Shown here in pieces: positions 56,848-64,000 of a stretch of DNA of 64,000 nt. The notes below the pieces were generated by a model. It had not been told where the DNA came from and ran no database searches. It was given only the letters and a program-made list of their open reading frames with translations. Each line of letters starts with the position of its first letter. Position 1 is the stretch's first letter. The DNA comes from Pseudoalteromonas spongiae UST010723-006. Lineage in GTDB: Bacteria; Pseudomonadota; Gammaproteobacteria; Enterobacterales; Alteromonadaceae. Both the position numbers and the translations under genes were made by a program. The stretch is taken from positions 669,001 to 733,000 of the forward strand of contig NZ_CP011039.1 of assembly GCF_000238255.3 (NCBI RefSeq). The letters run 5' to 3'.

Positions 56848-57435
56848 CTACTTGGTCGCTAACAAGTAGCTCGTAACCTGACCAAAATTCTTTTCCTTTA
56901 AAATTTGCCAGTCGTCTGGGAAATGCAAGTTTACTAATTCTTTTTCGACTTCCAAATACACAACGGCATCGTTATTTAGCAAGTTATTGTCAGCTAATAA
57001 GTGACAGGTTTTTTCTGCTAAATTTTTGCGAAAGGGGGGATCAATAAATACTAAGTCGAATTTATCAGCTAGTTTGGGCAGAACCTCTAAACTGTTCCCA
57101 TGTTTTAATGTGGTATTTTCTGCTTTAAGTACATTGATATTTTCAGCGATCTGTCGATGTGCTGTTGCATCCAGTTCAATAAACGTTACTTTTTTGGCGT
57201 AGCGAGACAGAGCTTCGAATCCTAAACCACCTGAACCTGCAAAACAATCTAACACATTGGCATTGCTGGTGTATGGCATCAACCAGTTAAATACGGTTTC
57301 CTTCACTCTATCTGTTGTAGGTCTCAAGCCTTCAACATCATGCACTTTTAACTTTCTCGAACGGAACTTGCCGCCAATAATTCTAATTTGACCAGAATTG
57401 TTTGTTGGCTTGTTTTTTTGCTTGTGTGATCGCAT
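56848..57435 (-). CDS. rsmD: 16S rRNA guanine(966)-N2 methyltransferase
   Basis: This 195-residue methyltransferase has a basic N-terminus, then IRIIGGKFRSRKL and LRPTTDRVKETVFNWL of RsmD. SAM motif I is VLDCFAGSGGLGFEAL and the catalytic motif is DLVFIDPPFRKN. It is divergent from ftsY, the conserved arrangement in gammaproteobacteria. Confidence 0.96.
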   Translation of the reverse strand: MRSHKQKNKPTNNSGQIRIIGGKFRSRKLKVHDVEGLRPTTDRVKETVFNWLMPYTSNANVLDCFAGSGGLGFEALSRYAKKVTFIELDATAHRQIAENINVLKAENTTLKHGNSLEVLPKLADKFDLVFIDPPFRKNLAEKTCHLLADNNLLNNDAVVYLEVEKELVNLHFPDDWQILKEKNFGQVTSYLLATK

Positions 57436-57485
57436 TACAAATTTACTTACAGAATTAGACTAAAAAACCAATATGATTTTTTTCA

Positions 57486-57497
57486 TTCACCGGTGAA
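57486..57497. promoter_or_regulatory. Palindrome in the rsmD-ftsY divergent region
   Basis: TTCACCGGTGAA is a perfect 12-bp palindrome lying 50 bp from the rsmD start and 60 bp from the ftsY start. It looks like an operator, but I cannot name a regulator. Confidence 0.35.
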
Positions 57498-57556
57498 AGT
57501 GATACCATATTGAGAATTGTAGTTTATCAGAATTTTGTGATTGGTATTTAACTTAA

Positions 57557-59419
57557 ATGGCAAAAAATAAATTTTTATCTTGGCTTGGCTTCGGCAAAAA
57601 AGACGAGCAACAGCAGCAAGAAGAAGCACGCCTAGCGGCAGAAGAACAAGCGCGATTAGAAGCGGAAGAAAAGGCACGTTTAGAAGCTGAGGCTGAAGAA
57701 AAACGCCAAGCAGAAGAGGCTGCAAGAATAGCAGCTGAGGCAGAAGAAAAACGCCAAGCTGAGCAAGCTGCGCGATTAGCAGCTGAGGCAGAAGAAAAGC
57801 GCCAAGCTGAAGAGGCAGCACGAATAGCCGCTGAGGTAGAAGAAAAACGCCAAGCTGAGCAAGCGGCACGTTTAGCTGCTGAGGCAGAAGAAAAGCGCCA
57901 AGCCGAAGAAGCTGCACGAATAGCTGCTGAAGCGGAAGAAAAACGTCAAGCCGAAGAAGCGGCACGTTTAGCTGCTGAAGCGGAAGAAAAACGTCAGGCT
58001 GAAGAAGCACGTTTCGCAGCTGAGGCGGAAGAAAAACGCCAAGCCGAAGAAGCTGCACGTTTAGCTGCTGAAGCAGAAGAAAAACGCCAAGCAGAAGAGG
58101 CCGCACGAATAGCTGCTGAGGCGGAAGAAAAGCGCCAAGCTGAAGAAGCACGTTTAGCAGCTGAGGCTGAAGAAAAACGCCAAGCCGAGCAAGCGGCACG
58201 TTTAGCTGCTGAAGCGGAAGAAAAACGCCAATCAGAAGAGGCTGCACGAATAGCTGCTGAGGCGGAAGAAAAGCGCCAAGCTGAAGAGGCAGCACGAATA
58301 GCTGCTGAAGCGGAAGAAAAACGCCAAGCAGAAGAAGCAACGCGTTTAGAAGCTGAGGCGGAAGAAAAACGCCAAGCAGAAGAAGCTGCACGAATAGCTG
58401 CAGAAGCGGAAGAAAAGCGCCAAGCAGAAGAAGCAGCACGTTTAGCTGCTGAAGCAGAAGAGCAAGCTAAACAGCAAGCTGAAAAAAGTAAAGAACCTAA
58501 GCTTGGCTTCTTTGGTCGCTTGAAAAAAGGCTTACTTAAAACAAAGCAAAACATCGGTGCAGGTTTTGCCAATATTTTTAGCGGTAAAAAAATCGATGAT
58601 GAGCTATTTGAAGAGCTCGAGACACAACTGCTTACAGCTGACGTAGGTGTTGATACAACGCTTAAACTAATTGATAGTTTAACGGACGCAGCCGATCGTA
58701 AACAGCTAAAAGATGGTGATGCACTATACGGTTTATTAAAAGAAGAAATGTCGTCAATGTTAGCAAGTGCAGACAAACCGCTTGTGATTGAAATCAGCGA
58801 TGGCCCATTTGTTATCTTAATGGTGGGTGTAAACGGCGTAGGTAAAACAACAACCATTGGTAAGCTAGCTAAGCAATTCCAAGCTGAAGGTAAGTCCGTT
58901 ATGTTAGCTGCGGGCGACACATTCCGTGCAGCTGCGGTAGAGCAGTTACAAGTTTGGGGCGAACGTAACGATATTCCTGTTATTGCGCAACACACCGGCG
59001 CAGATAGTGCATCTGTTGTGTTTGATGCATTGCAAGCAGCGAAGGCTCGTAACGTGGATGTATTAATTGCCGATACTGCGGGTCGTTTACAAAACAAAGA
59101 TCACTTAATGCAAGAGCTAGAAAAAATTGCACGTGTGATGAAAAAGCTTGATGTGAATGCGCCACATGAAGTGATGCTAACTATCGATGCAGGTACTGGT
59201 CAAAACGCAATTAGCCAAGTAAAACTATTTGATCAAGCTGTAGGCCTAACAGGGATCAGCTTAACGAAATTAGACGGTACAGCCAAAGGTGGGGTTATTT
59301 TTGCGGTGGCTGACCAATTTAACATTCCAATTCGCTACATAGGTGTGGGTGAAGGTATTGATGATTTACGTACCTTTAATAGCACAGACTTTATCGAGGC
59401 TCTGTTTAGCGAAGAGTAA
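57557..59419 (+). CDS. ftsY: Signal recognition particle receptor FtsY with expanded repeat domain
   Basis: This 620-residue protein ends in a normal NG domain: the N domain from about residue 310 (LGFFGRLKKGLLKTKQNIG), P-loop GVNGVGKTTTIGKLAK (about 424-432), DTFRAAAVEQL, DTAGR, and TKLDGTAKGG. The N-terminal A domain is replaced by a highly charged helical region of 16 tandem Glu/Ala/Lys/Arg/Gln repeats (about residues 45-298). E. coli FtsY has 497 residues. FtsY docks SRP-ribosome complexes at SecYEG. The ATG at 57557 starts MAKNKFLSWLGFG, an amphipathic membrane-binding helix. It is followed by ftsE-ftsX. Confidence 0.96.
   Translation: MAKNKFLSWLGFGKKDEQQQQEEARLAAEEQARLEAEEKARLEAEAEEKRQAEEAARIAAEAEEKRQAEQAARLAAEAEEKRQAEEAARIAAEVEEKRQAEQAARLAAEAEEKRQAEEAARIAAEAEEKRQAEEAARLAAEAEEKRQAEEARFAAEAEEKRQAEEAARLAAEAEEKRQAEEAARIAAEAEEKRQAEEARLAAEAEEKRQAEQAARLAAEAEEKRQSEEAARIAAEAEEKRQAEEAARIAAEAEEKRQAEEATRLEAEAEEKRQAEEAARIAAEAEEKRQAEEAARLAAEAEEQAKQQAEKSKEPKLGFFGRLKKGLLKTKQNIGAGFANIFSGKKIDDELFEELETQLLTADVGVDTTLKLIDSLTDAADRKQLKDGDALYGLLKEEMSSMLASADKPLVIEISDGPFVILMVGVNGVGKTTTIGKLAKQFQAEGKSVMLAAGDTFRAAAVEQLQVWGERNDIPVIAQHTGADSASVVFDALQAAKARNVDVLIADTAGRLQNKDHLMQELEKIARVMKKLDVNAPHEVMLTIDAGTGQNAISQVKLFDQAVGLTGISLTKLDGTAKGGVIFAVADQFNIPIRYIGVGEGIDDLRTFNSTDFIEALFSEE
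57689..58450 (+). repeat. Tandem repeat array inside ftsY (16 units of 48 or 45 bp)
   Basis: Sixteen consecutive units encode variants of EAEEKRQAEEAARLAA. Fourteen are 16 residues (48 bp) and two (units 7 and 10) are 15 residues (45 bp), so all changes keep the frame. Units alternate mainly between RIAA and RLAA ends. Synonymous differences between units (for example aaacgc, aagcgc, aaacgt) show they are not all recent copies. Confidence 0.95.
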
Positions 59420-59440
59420 TTCAACGACATAATTATAATA

Positions 59441-60115
59441 ATGATAAAATTTCAACAGGTAAGTAAAACATACCCAGGTGGCCATAAAGCAATTGAGAAA
59501 GTAAGTTTTCACTTACAACCCGGTGAACTCGCTTTCTTGACTGGCCACAGTGGGGCAGGGAAAAGCACCTTGCTTAAACTGATCAGCTTGATGGAACGTC
59601 CATCTGCTGGTGAGGTATATATAAATGGTGTGCTACTAAATAAAGTAACGGCAAAGCAAGTGCCTTATGTTAGGCGCGATATTGGCGTTATTTTTCAAAA
59701 CCACCGATTGCTCGACCGTTACTCGGTATTCGATAATGTGGCGTTGCCACTGGTTATTGCTGGCAGTCATCGCCGTGATATCGAAAAACGAGTGCATGCA
59801 GCCCTCGATAAAGTAGGGCTGTTAAATAAAGCACGCTGTGCACCAGAAACCCTATCGGGTGGTGAACAACAACGCGTTGGTATTGCGCGGGCAATTGTTA
59901 ATTCACCGCCTATTTTACTAGCCGACGAACCTACCGGTAACTTAGATCCTGAGTTGTCAGTTGAAATTTTAAAACTGTTTGAAGAATTCAATCAACACGG
60001 CACGACTGTGCTTATTGCTACCCACGATTTAGGCTTAATAGCGCGTATGAAGTACCGCAGCTTAACCTTGAAGGCAGGCAATTTAGTCACCGATCCACTT
60101 ATGGGAGGTGCATAA
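59441..60115 (+). CDS. ftsE: Cell division ATP-binding protein FtsE
   Basis: This 224-residue ABC ATPase works with FtsX to activate peptidoglycan hydrolases at the septum. Walker A GHSGAGKSTLLKL, the Q-loop FQNHRLLDRYSVFDNV, the signature LSGGEQQRVGIARAI, Walker B ILLADEPTGNLD and the H-loop ATHD are intact. It follows ftsY by 21 bases and overlaps ftsX by one base (TAATG). Confidence 0.97.
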   Translation: MIKFQQVSKTYPGGHKAIEKVSFHLQPGELAFLTGHSGAGKSTLLKLISLMERPSAGEVYINGVLLNKVTAKQVPYVRRDIGVIFQNHRLLDRYSVFDNVALPLVIAGSHRRDIEKRVHAALDKVGLLNKARCAPETLSGGEQQRVGIARAIVNSPPILLADEPTGNLDPELSVEILKLFEEFNQHGTTVLIATHDLGLIARMKYRSLTLKAGNLVTDPLMGGA

Positions 60116-61101
60116 TGAGTTTATTGTTTAAAGGCCGCAAAAGTCAGGGTGAACAGGTTCAACACTCTTATTTTATGGGGCTGTACTTTGCCTTTATGAA
60201 TACCATTCGCCAAGGTGTACACAGCCTAGGTGAATTGTGGCGAACGCCAGTTGCATCACTGATGACCATTGCAGTACTCGGGCTTAGTTTAACCCTGCCT
60301 ACCACTTTGTATGTGGTAGTTAAGAATGTGCAAAAGGTAAGTAGCGGTTTTGACAATGCAGCTGAAATTTCATTGTTCTTAAAACAAGACATCTCTGACA
60401 AAGAATCAAGTGCATTGATTAAGCGCCTGTCTCTTTATAACGAAGTAAAAGATGTGCGTTTTATTTCAAAGCAAGATGCATTAGAAGAGTTTAAAGTGGC
60501 GTCGGGCTTTGGTGAAGCGCTTAATTACCTCGACGAAAATCCACTACCCAGTGTTGTTTTAGTCACACCGAATAGCCAATTTACCAAACCAGAAGCGGCA
60601 CGGGAATTACTCGATAAACTCGAGCGAGAGAGAGATGTTGATTTTGGTAAACTCGATATTGAGTGGTTAGAAAGACTTAATGCACTACTCAGTTTATTGC
60701 GTGAAAGCGTGCTTACAATTGCATTTTTACTGTTAACCTCAGTGGTGTTGATTGTAGGTAATACTATTCGCTTGTCTATTATGGATAAGAAACAAGAAAT
60801 ACAGCTAATGAAGCTCGTTGGTGCAACCAACCATTTTATTCAAGCCCCGTTTTTGTGGACAGGCATTTGGTATGGCATAGTAGGTGGTTTTATTGCTTTT
60901 CTAGCGGTATTGATGATGTTGCTTTGGCTGGATAATGCCGTTACCCAAGTTGTGGGCGTTTATAACGCTAACTTCAACTTACAGGGACTCAACTTTAGTG
61001 AATTTCTTGTACTGCTTGGGCTTGCTGTTTGTTTAGGTTTATTTGGCTCGTTTTTGTCTGTTAAGCGCTATATCGACGCCATTGAACCAAATGAAGTGTA
61101 A
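60115..61101 (+). CDS. ftsX: Cell division protein FtsX
   Basis: This 328-residue membrane protein has the FtsX layout: a cytoplasmic N-terminus, membrane helix 1 at about 46-66, a periplasmic loop (about 70-190), then three helices near 200-225, 245-270 and 295-315 in the FtsX permease domain. In E. coli the periplasmic loop binds EnvC. It is coupled to ftsE and followed by rpoH, the conserved order. Confidence 0.96.
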   Translation: MSLLFKGRKSQGEQVQHSYFMGLYFAFMNTIRQGVHSLGELWRTPVASLMTIAVLGLSLTLPTTLYVVVKNVQKVSSGFDNAAEISLFLKQDISDKESSALIKRLSLYNEVKDVRFISKQDALEEFKVASGFGEALNYLDENPLPSVVLVTPNSQFTKPEAARELLDKLERERDVDFGKLDIEWLERLNALLSLLRESVLTIAFLLLTSVVLIVGNTIRLSIMDKKQEIQLMKLVGATNHFIQAPFLWTGIWYGIVGGFIAFLAVLMMLLWLDNAVTQVVGVYNANFNLQGLNFSEFLVLLGLAVCLGLFGSFLSVKRYIDAIEPNEV

Positions 61102-61182
61102 TGCCAATATTGCGTTTTACAATAAAACTACATTTAAAATTGTCGATATTTCAGGTCATTAGTTTTTTCTTACAAGTTTCAC

Positions 61183-61211
61183 GGAACTTTAACTTGAATT
61201 CCTGCTCAAAA
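61183..61211 (+). promoter_or_regulatory. sigmaE-type promoter of rpoH
   Basis: GGAACTT (61183-61189) and TCAAAA (61206-61211) are separated by 16 bases, matching the sigmaE (RpoE) consensus GGAACTT-N16-TCNNA. E. coli rpoH also has a sigmaE promoter. The predicted start site is near 61217. A sigma70-like TTGAAT-16-TAAATT overlaps it (61194-61221). Confidence 0.72.
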
Positions 61212-61225
61212 CCTGTAAATTCAGA

Positions 61226-61252
61226 TTAGCACTCTAGTTAAGAGAGTGCTAA
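61226..61252 (+). promoter_or_regulatory. CIRCE element (HrcA operator) upstream of rpoH
   Basis: TTAGCACTC (61226-61234) and GAGTGCTAA (61244-61252) are separated by exactly 9 bases, a perfect match to the CIRCE consensus bound by the HrcA repressor. It lies just after the sigmaE promoter and 36 bp before the rpoH start. No hrcA gene is in the window. Confidence 0.85.
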
Positions 61253-61288
61253 AGTTGAGAAAATTTGTTACTCCACCTGAGGTGAAAT

Positions 61289-62152
61289 ATGACAAAAGAG
61301 ATGAATGCCCTAACACTTAGTATGCCGCAAAACGCAGGTAGCATTGAAAGCTATCTACAAGCTGTAAGCACTATTCCTATGCTAAGTGCGGATGAGGAAA
61401 AGGCATTAGCAGAGAAGCTACAGGACAGTGGCGACCTTAATGCAGCACGTGCGTTAATTATGTCACACCTTAGATTTGTAGCGCATATCGCGAAAAGTTA
61501 CTCGGGTTATGGTTTACCGCAGGCAGATCTTATCCAGGAAGGTAACGTTGGCCTAATGAAGGCTGTAAAACGTTTTGACCCAACTGTAGGTGTACGCTTA
61601 GTATCGTTTGCTGTTCACTGGATTAAAGCTGAAATTCATGAATATGTGCTGAAAAACTGGCGCATCGTAAAAGTAGCAACGACTAAAGCGCAGCGTAAGT
61701 TGTTCTTTAACCTTCGTAAAAACAAAAAGCGTTTAGGCTGGTTTAATCACGAAGAAGTACAAACGGTTGCTAACGAATTAGGTGTATCTGAAAAAGACGT
61801 ACGTGAAATGGAATCACGTATGAGCAGCCAAGATATGGGCTTTGACCTAAATGCTGACGAAGACGACGGCGCAACACAGTCACAGTTTTCACCTGTTCAG
61901 TACTTAACAGACCAATCGTCTGACTTAGCTGAAACAGTTGAAGAAGAGCAGTGGCAAGATAATTCAAACCAACGTTTATTCTCAGCGTTAAATACGTTAG
62001 ATGACCGCTCACAAGATATTATTCGTGCACGCTGGTTAGCTGAAGAGAAAGAAACGCTGCAAGACCTAGCTGCTAAATACCAAGTATCAGCAGAGCGTGT
62101 TCGCCAGTTAGAAAAATCAGCTATGAAAAAGCTACAAAACTTAATGGCGTAA
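61289..62152 (+). CDS. rpoH: RNA polymerase heat-shock sigma factor RpoH (sigma32)
   Basis: This 287-residue sigma70-family protein has region 2 ([39 protein letters not shown]), the RpoH box [20 protein letters not shown], and region 4 ([20 protein letters not shown]). It directs transcription of chaperone and protease genes. GAGGTGA precedes the ATG. Its upstream region joins a sigmaE-type promoter and a CIRCE operator. The length matches E. coli RpoH (284). Confidence 0.97.
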
Positions 62153-62175
62153 TTGCTAATTACAGCCAAAGAGAG

Positions 62176-62200
62176 AAAAGCCGCATCCGCGGCTTTTTTT
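62176..62200 (+). terminator. rpoH terminator
   Basis: AAAAGCCGC and GCGGCTTTT with an ATCC loop are followed by further T, 24 bases after the rpoH stop. Confidence 0.93.
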
Positions 62201-62767
62201 GTGGGTGAAGTTTATGATGCGGACAGGAGTAAATTTAGTTGTGTGATAAATCTAGCCCACATACAAATCCCTTTTAATCATTAAGCCCATCCATTGGCTC
62301 AATGTTACTTTTCTTTATTACAAGGTCCTTCTTTTCATCTAAAGACCGCCTACGGCGTTCTAATTTGTTCCCGACAAATTAGTGCTTCGCCAAAGATAAA
62401 GTAACCACAAATTTATCGGGAATAAATTTGAACAGCGAAGCTGACCCGAAGGGCGAAATACAAGGATGTATTTTGTAATAGAAAGGCGACCGCTCTATCA
62501 AACTTTATCCTCTAAGCAACTTTGAATTTTTAGACAACGCCATGAAGCGGCATCCATGCCTAAGCATGGCTTACTCGACTCGCTGCGCTGCCTGTCTCGG
62601 ATTATCAATTCAAAGTTGATTTTCGGGTTTTATAAAAAGCGGAAGGGAATCTCAGCAACAGCTTTCAAGGTCGCAATTGAGCGAATAGCGGTCGTTGCTA
62701 AAGAAGTATCAAAAATGCAAAATAGAGTGGTTTAACTTTAAAGATGATTATTAAAAGGAATTAAAAA
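62201..62767. repeat. Non-coding inverted-repeat region downstream of rpoH
   Basis: No credible gene is seen in these 567 bases. Two linked hairpins, TAATTTGT-TCCCG-ACAAATTA (62361-62381) and AAATTTAT-CGGGA-ATAAATTT (62409-62429), are near-inverted copies of each other. They lie within or beside imperfect GTTACTTT/AAAGTAAC arms (62304, 62398). A third hairpin AAATACA-AGGA-TGTATTT is at 62456-62473. A second part is bounded by CAACTTTGAATT (62517-62528) and AATTCAAAGTTG (62607-62618) with CCATGC-CTAA-GCATGG inside. The structure suggests a dispersed intergenic repeat or insertion remnant. Confidence 0.6.
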
Positions 62768-63586
62768 ATGCTCTTTGTAGAACTTAATAAACAGCTTGAT
62801 AAATCAGCGTGGCATACGCAAGATCCTCAGTGGCTGAAAGCCCGTAAAAAGCACTGGCAAACCTTAGTTAAATTTTTTAAAGCACATAAAATACTGCGTC
62901 CAGACAGCATTAAATATTATCAAACCTATTTTTTAACTGGTGAGTTACAAAATACTCAAGAAATAGGGTATTTTCCGCGAGAAGTGAATGCATTTTTAAT
63001 TATGATGTTCTACCCAGATCAAACAAAAGAAAGTTTGAGAACCGTATTTAATATATATTGTGAAACATATCACCCACAAAAAGTTATGCCGTGTTGCGAT
63101 GATAGCATCGACTTTTTCGAAAAAAATATAATGACTTTTGTTGAAGACCAAGAGGGGGTGTTAGGTGGCAACGAATCCATTTATTGCGATGTTTTATATG
63201 GTGAAACAAAAGAAGAGCAACTAAAGCGCCATTCATATAGAAACCAATATAACTTTCCGGCGTTATGCAGCAGTTTAAGTAAATTTGTTTTGGATGGTTG
63301 TCATTACAATTATGACTATTTTCAATATATCATTGATTTTTGTTTTCTTACAATAGCACCTGATGAATTAGAATTTGGTAGAACAAAAATAGAGTTACCT
63401 AAACAGCTTGCTATTTTTGCTAACTACGATCAGCTTGACCCATTTAAAGATACTAATCCCGAACGCTACGAAAGCGCTTGGAAAGTGGTTAATAAACTGA
63501 GAGCAAAATTTGACAATGAAGACCTGCCAGAAGAGCTCAAAACATTATGGGCTCAAGCTCAAAATCAAGAGGTCAGCTTAAGCTAA
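62768..63586 (+). CDS. Hypothetical protein (272 aa)
   Basis: I do not recognise this family. The 272-residue product is soluble, rich in aromatic residues and Asp/Glu/Lys, with Cys pairs (MPCCDDS) and no signal peptide or membrane helix. Residues 20-60 (WLKARKKHWQTLVKFFKAHK) look helical. AAGGA precedes the ATG by 9 bases. Its stop overlaps the start of the next gene (TAATG). Composition, the tight pair and the flanking repeat region resemble accessory or immunity-type cargo, but this is only inference. Confidence 0.7.
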   Translation: MLFVELNKQLDKSAWHTQDPQWLKARKKHWQTLVKFFKAHKILRPDSIKYYQTYFLTGELQNTQEIGYFPREVNAFLIMMFYPDQTKESLRTVFNIYCETYHPQKVMPCCDDSIDFFEKNIMTFVEDQEGVLGGNESIYCDVLYGETKEEQLKRHSYRNQYNFPALCSSLSKFVLDGCHYNYDYFQYIIDFCFLTIAPDELEFGRTKIELPKQLAIFANYDQLDPFKDTNPERYESAWKVVNKLRAKFDNEDLPEELKTLWAQAQNQEVSLS

Positions 63587-64000
63587 TGGAATTAGTAATA
63601 AAGTTGGCTGGTAAAACATCAAAGCAATCAGTAACAGGCTTTATAGCAAAGATGCTGAGCGAGGATGCACCTTTGTTTGTAGATGACGTTGATGCAGAAT
63701 ACCACATGGCGTTTGAAGCCTTATCCTACTTTGAACAGCCAGACTATAAAAAAGTGTCAGGGCAAGATTTTATTGCACAGTGGGAGCTCGGTGGAGATGC
63801 CGAATATGAAGAAATATTACTCTCATTAAATGAGGCTGGGTTAGATAAAATTGTTGCTTATATAAATCTTGACCAAACTGAAAAAATTGTAATATGTGAA
63901 AAGGGTGCTTTGTTATCTCTGCCACCCGATTCAATTCAACATTTTAGCAAAGCTGAAAATTCACAAGAGAGGCAATTTGAATTTTTATTGAGCCTTTTAC
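63586..64000 (+). CDS. Hypothetical protein, cut by the right edge
   Basis: The frame is open from an ATG at 63586 to the window end, about 138 codons. The product begins MELVIKLAGKTSKQSVTG and contains an acidic region with LSYFEQPDYKKVSGQDFIAQ. No signal peptide or family motif is seen. It overlaps the previous gene by one base and so is probably translated together with it. The 3' end, and hence the full size, is not visible. Confidence 0.6.
   Translation, partial: MELVIKLAGKTSKQSVTGFIAKMLSEDAPLFVDDVDAEYHMAFEALSYFEQPDYKKVSGQDFIAQWELGGDAEYEEILLSLNEAGLDKIVAYINLDQTEKIVICEKGALLSLPPDSIQHFSKAENSQERQFEFLLSLL

Follow-up and report, generated by a model that had tools for sequence, protein, structure and literature searches.

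A CIRCE operator in the rpoH leader of Pseudoalteromonas spongiae points to control of the sigma32 gene by HrcA

The analysed stretch of Pseudoalteromonas spongiae UST010723-006 DNA (64,000 nucleotides, referred to here as the window) carries on its forward strand rpoH, which encodes the heat-shock sigma factor sigma32 (61289..62152, 287 aa; 415.9 bits against the TIGR02392 rpoH_proteo model, cut-off 323.1). It is preceded on the same strand, at 57557..61101, by three genes which, from their ORF translations, we take to be ftsY-ftsE-ftsX. Within ftsY, a 48-nt unit repeated in tandem about 17 times (57660-58461) encodes an acidic, alanine-rich stretch, so resulting in a very long N-terminal domain.

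The leader between these genes and rpoH contains several closely packed elements. A sigmaE-type promoter, GGAACTT-N16-TCAAAA, occupies 61183..61211 of the forward strand, with the -35 element at 61183-61189, a 16-nt spacer and the -10 element at 61206-61211, and it fits the sigmaE pattern GGAACTT-N15..17-TCnnA. It is overlapped by a sigma70-like pair on the same strand (TTGAAT-N16-TAAATT, 61194..61221, with 4/6 + 4/6 matching letters), the second hexamer of which stops 4 nt short of a CIRCE operator, TTAGCACTC-TAGTTAAGA-GAGTGCTAA, with an N9 spacer (61226..61252, forward strand). This operator, a predicted HrcA site, is exact and conserved in the genus. Counted from the predicted sigmaE transcription start it extends from roughly +8 to +34, and a gap of 36 nt separates it from the rpoH ATG at 61289. 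The initial annotation had described an exact CIRCE behind a sigmaE-type promoter of rpoH, and the letters were confirmed on re-reading. A consensus promoter scan, which needs 9/12 letters, listed no promoter at the rpoH leader; the sigma70-like hexamers have 8/12. An Rfam search of 57000-64000 returned nothing above gathering scores.

The Shine-Dalgarno sequence AGGTG (61280..61284, forward strand) lies in a part of the leader RNA that is predicted to fold into a hairpin, in which the Shine-Dalgarno region is paired (61263-61296). The sequence TCAC(T/C)GAGGTGA surrounds it in 51 of 57 genus leaders, and this exact form is absent from the window. The small hairpin might serve as an RNA thermometer.

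A chance origin of the CIRCE can be ruled out for statistical reasons. At up to 3 mismatches, one match is present in the window while 0.05 would be expected from shuffled sequence, and the whole genome (4,752,413 bases) contains this single site, forward and reverse matches being one palindrome that is counted once. From the base composition of the window, about 7e-5 exact copies would be expected in 4.75 Mb. The earlier judgement that a chance match to both arms is very unlikely is thus borne out, and the recommended search for other CIRCE sites in the genome, run at up to 3 mismatches, recovered the rpoH site alone.

The operator is a constant feature of the genus. It is found upstream of rpoH in all 59 assemblies with a readable rpoH and is exact in 57 of them, which answers the question of whether the dyad is conserved in relatives. 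All 31 CIRCE loci that were read (30 from relatives plus our own) lie upstream of rpoH, and of the remaining 29 genomes, 28 contain a single CIRCE when up to 1 mismatch is allowed. In the last of them, the draft assembly G015, no RpoH was detected at E <=1e-80; it possesses hrcA, and its sole 3-mismatch site is not next to an rpoH motif. Other 3-mismatch sites in the genus genomes represent, among the matches listed, largely one sequence with many copies per genome, perhaps located in rRNA operons.

Two leaders (L017 and L164) have a single changed letter in the right arm, at the usual distance from rpoH, and were left out of the statistics on the 57 leaders. The first belongs to G028, whose hrcA frame (L278), alone among those of 60 genus genomes, is short, with a break between the winged helix and the sensor domain. 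A broken hrcA together with an altered CIRCE would fit joint decay, or may reflect an assembly error. In G016, the source of L164, the arm is altered in the same way although the hrcA frame is open, which speaks against a simple decay link.

The absence of hrcA is rejected. A search of the genome with PF01628, the profile of the HrcA C-terminal domain, identified one gene (33 bits; 32.2 bits in a second search, Pfam cut-off 22.2), so the homologue called for by the initial annotation is present, in a nadK|hrcA-grpE slot (neighbours named from their sequences). It encodes 314 aa, residues 2-85 of which align to the winged helix of Thermotoga HrcA (1STZ, E 5.2e-12). An HrcA match occurs in 60/60 genus genomes, own included, and the gene order is the same in 24/24 other genus loci examined.

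This HrcA is far from typical. It scores 115.4 bits and so misses the TIGR00331 equivalog cut-off of 197.2, for which reason we place it as a divergent subfamily of the HrcA family. Its closest relatives, where records give the organism, are described as HrcA-type regulator of Pseudoalteromonas; among the best 120 of 787 homologues 36 are close, and the score then falls from 243 to 73 bits, marking a subfamily of its own. Compared with four canonical HrcAs from the order, two of which have the same sequence, this HrcA is 35-42% identical in the winged helix and 17-22% over the remainder, the sensor part. The nadK-grpE slot also holds hrcA in three of the four canonical loci, the flanks of the other (L005) showing neither neighbour, and this shared slot points to vertical descent with a fast-changing sensor part. 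Within the genus, dN/dS was 0.00-0.05 in 19/20 domain comparisons (10 pairs) and undefined in one, ratios that are rough because many dS values exceed 1 and are saturated; the broken frame L278 was excluded from these pairs and from alignment A1. The values indicate that HrcA is evolving under purifying selection in the genus.

The link between HrcA and rpoH extends far beyond Pseudoalteromonas. For a class-wide sample, 30/277 HrcA-positive and 30/93 HrcA-negative genomes were chosen, spread by eye along the list; in the negative set, 12 genomes were recorded without a match and 18 were inferred to be negative from their absence among the matches. A protein search for RpoH (E <=1e-50) retained 28 genomes of each kind, and the roughly 260 nt ahead of each rpoH were examined for a CIRCE, allowing up to 3 mismatches. 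It was present in 27/28 HrcA-positive genomes (12 exact) vs 5/28 HrcA-negative ones (1 exact), with a Fisher value of 1.3e-9 when the genomes are treated as if unrelated. In the five HrcA-negative cases hrcA may have been missed or lost. The single HrcA-positive exception, G330, has an exact CIRCE at groES and none at rpoH. An alignment of rpoH upstream regions across the order had also been proposed; in the corresponding comparison, a CIRCE precedes rpoH in 4/4 HrcA-positive genomes (up to 1 mismatch) and in 0/25 HrcA-negative ones (up to 2 mismatches).

Several individual loci deserve mention. Among these 25 HrcA-negative genomes, a 3-mismatch dyad precedes rpoH in L215, from a genome that is 89% complete, and 5-mismatch dyads occur at the usual distance from rpoH in L199 and L216, with no HrcA detected in any of the three; these degenerate dyads are possible fossils of a CIRCE. 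G220 and G399, which represent two further genera of this GTDB family, have neither HrcA nor a CIRCE at rpoH. G128 possesses two rpoH genes, one with a 1-mismatch CIRCE (L224) and the other without (L249, best site 8 mismatches), and the second locus was left out of the genome count.

A scan of GTDB r220 for a CIRCE core followed by an RpoH motif yielded at least 120 stretches, 80 of them with titles, which include Rhodocyclaceae, Halieaceae, Lysobacterales, Burkholderiales, Rheinheimera, Alishewanella, Polynucleobacter and others. As this set was selected for CIRCE, it is uninformative on frequency. One metagenome record (L110) titled Klebsiella pneumoniae has a CIRCE before rpoH and an RpoH start near that of L074, and for both reasons its name is probably wrong.

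The scan and the class sample together rule out an invention specific to the genus. They suggest that a CIRCE at rpoH is widespread in HrcA-bearing Beta- and Gammaproteobacteria and probably reflects an old link. The earlier proposal that HrcA controls rpoH thus fits both the presence of hrcA and the co-occurrence, and the arrangement is not peculiar to the genus; repression is what we infer from this pattern.

A further finding concerns the promoter to which these distant operators are attached. From the at least 120 stretches, 113 rpoH loci outside Pseudoalteromonas were analysed (omitting 5 that were Pseudoalteromonas-like and 2 with <80 nt upstream). The tetramer GAAC starts 10-17 nt before the CIRCE in 82 of these, while 200 letter shuffles of the 80 nt upstream gave a mean of 3.4 and a maximum of 9. 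The fuller pattern GAACnn-N15-17-TCnnA, with its TC at CIRCE positions 8-9, is found in 67/113 loci; because of this position, the left CIRCE arm ends as the first two letters of the sigmaE -10 element. The same holds for the rpoH operators of the HrcA-positive class sample (GAAC in 23/27, TCnnA in 24/27), and groES operators of that sample served as a control (1/27 and 3/27). The latter were found at up to 3 mismatches in 27/30 groES loci, one per genome. Outside the genus, the rpoH CIRCE is thus usually fused to a sigmaE promoter, with GAAC as the -35 core, some 15 nt ahead of the operator, and TCnnA as the -10.

The situation in Pseudoalteromonas itself is less uniform. In the 57 exact-CIRCE leaders the best sigma70-like pair agrees with the consensus at 7-10/12 positions, and in 56 of them its second hexamer stops 3-7 nt short of the CIRCE, so that hexamers similar to those of the window are placed near-constantly; as the fit was confined to the region before the CIRCE, with the best match taken, and as the relatives are not independent, this is a description and not a proof. 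The pattern GAACnn-N15-18-TCnnA, in contrast, occurs in just six of the 57 (our own leader, L021, L040, L170, L175 and L176). The earlier assignment of a sigmaE promoter to rpoH stands for the window, with the restriction that few leaders of the genus show the motif.

This raises the possibility, which we regard as real though unlikely, that HrcA gates the sigma70-like promoter alone, the sigmaE motif of the window being a remnant or a chance match and the junction of sigmaE with HrcA being inoperative. Besides the low count in the genus, the frequency of the motif favours this reading: GAACTT-N16-TCNAA occurs once in the window where 0.23 matches would be expected by chance, and so is weak if taken alone. 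However, the motif begins 39-43 nt before the CIRCE in all six leaders, the placement in the five others being nearly identical to that in the window, and it is visible by eye in L164, which lies outside the 57. The high frequency of GAAC upstream of rpoH operators outside the genus also argues against chance.

It is very unlikely that the dyad functions chiefly at the RNA level, where a 5' stem-loop would govern the stability or translation of the rpoH transcript, instead of as a DNA operator. The CIRCE hairpin forms in 6/6 leaders folded, as expected since any such palindrome would form one, but the exact arm letters seen in 57/59 genus leaders are not needed for a hairpin alone, and the presence of CIRCE follows that of hrcA. 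That HrcA and its last site merely persist as relics of a lost regulation, as might be suspected from the very divergent repressor, the lack of a second CIRCE (up to 3 mismatches) in the genome and the altered arm letter of G016 despite its open hrcA frame, is extremely improbable given the low dN/dS of HrcA, the exactness of nearly all arms, and the imperfect CIRCE of G028, the one genome whose hrcA frame is short.

The operator, hrcA, their conservation and co-occurrence, and the promoter geometry can all be read directly from the genomes. The best explanation, which we hold with considerable confidence, is that the element is an HrcA operator of rpoH and that HrcA would lower rpoH transcription. 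The divergence of this HrcA from canonical members, the five HrcA-negative genomes with a CIRCE at rpoH, and G330, which lacks one, form a counterweight to the interpretation as an HrcA operator. Judged by sites with up to 3 mismatches, rpoH is most likely the only detectable target of HrcA in this genome.

The chaperone genes are consistent with an indirect role of the repressor. The 3.3 kb around groES are free of CIRCE-like sites even when up to 6 mismatches are allowed, and the closest match in the 10 kb spanning hrcA and grpE has 5 mismatches and is distant from both starts; HrcA would therefore act on chaperones mainly via sigma32. A sigma32-like site for grpE (CTTGAAA-N13-CCCCATAA, 14/15 consensus letters) is located at the hrcA end. 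One for groES (CTTGGGA-N13-CCCCATAA, 12/15 letters) lies about 100 nt upstream and is weak, as several chance-looking sites in the scan reach 12/15.

HrcA binding, repression, chaperone sensing and an AND-type gating are what we infer from these observations. Bound to CIRCE, HrcA would cover the starts of the sigma70-like and sigmaE promoters, or would block the polymerase just past them. In Bacillus, GroEL keeps HrcA active and is needed for its binding. By analogy, unfolded proteins would occupy the chaperone that keeps HrcA active, HrcA would be released, and sigma32 would rise and in turn activate chaperone genes such as grpE, with its near-perfect site, and perhaps groESL, with its weaker one. 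This would form a feedback loop in which a chaperone supports HrcA, HrcA represses rpoH, and sigma32 restores the chaperone. Input from sigmaE would be possible only while the operator is free, and the arrangement in the window may be how Pseudoalteromonas realises a wider Beta/Gammaproteobacterial circuit, one where the sigmaE -10 element is built into the CIRCE.

On balance, we favour a broader reading, although with clear reservations. In most HrcA-bearing Gammaproteobacteria (in the GTDB sense, Betaproteobacteria included), rpoH would be as constant a target of HrcA as groESL, by way of a composite element in which an HrcA half-site and the sigmaE -10 element share letters, such that envelope stress could raise sigma32 only while HrcA is not bound. 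In Pseudoalteromonas the regulon would have shrunk to one site and the sensor domain would have been re-shaped, leaving HrcA as a dedicated repressor of rpoH.

As for novelty, which the initial annotation had left undecided, searches of open full-text literature brought up no report of HrcA acting on rpoH in Pseudoalteromonas, and none of a CIRCE fused to a sigmaE promoter; subscription papers were mostly outside their scope, and Permina and Gelfand (2003), on this ground by title, may already list a CIRCE at rpoH. An operator at rpoH is, however, not new in itself. In the available part of one study, an exact TTAGCACTC-N9-GAGTGCTAA was predicted at -51 of rpoH in Geobacter sulfurreducens (Rodionov et al. 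2004, PMC545781). Unlike the P. spongiae genome, that species also has a CIRCE at groESL and hrcA-grpE-dnaKJ, and the same part mentions no sigmaE overlap for the rpoH site (PMC545781). In the portions available, this was the only paper to mention a CIRCE at rpoH, which is not the case for PMC3224663, PMC11764788, PMC10490939, PMC10696704, PMC3989490, PMC4989314, PMC8762339 and PMC3557214. For Xylella, HrcA action was suggested for the groESL operon, according to the accessible text of PMC3224663.

The system shares its operator and repressor family with Bacillus and many other bacteria, where HrcA and CIRCE act at groESL and dnaK operons, but its target is the sigma32 gene, and in this genome a CIRCE is missing at both groESL and hrcA-grpE. 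In Escherichia coli, rpoH is controlled by sigmaE and sigma70 promoters and by an RNA thermosensor, and the likeness is that sigmaE feeds sigma32 by transcription. The view that this enteric model lacks HrcA was upheld, as PF01628 gave no match in an E. coli control genome. Repression by HrcA and activation by sigma32 are commonly presented as separate heat-shock systems that work in parallel. Should HrcA indeed occupy the sigma32 gene in almost all Beta- and Gammaproteobacteria that possess it, one system would instead act through the other in a cascade, and about 40 bp of fused sigmaE/CIRCE sequence would connect cytoplasmic with envelope protein stress. Pseudoalteromonas, the HrcA of which appears to have a single target, offers a clean test of this connection.
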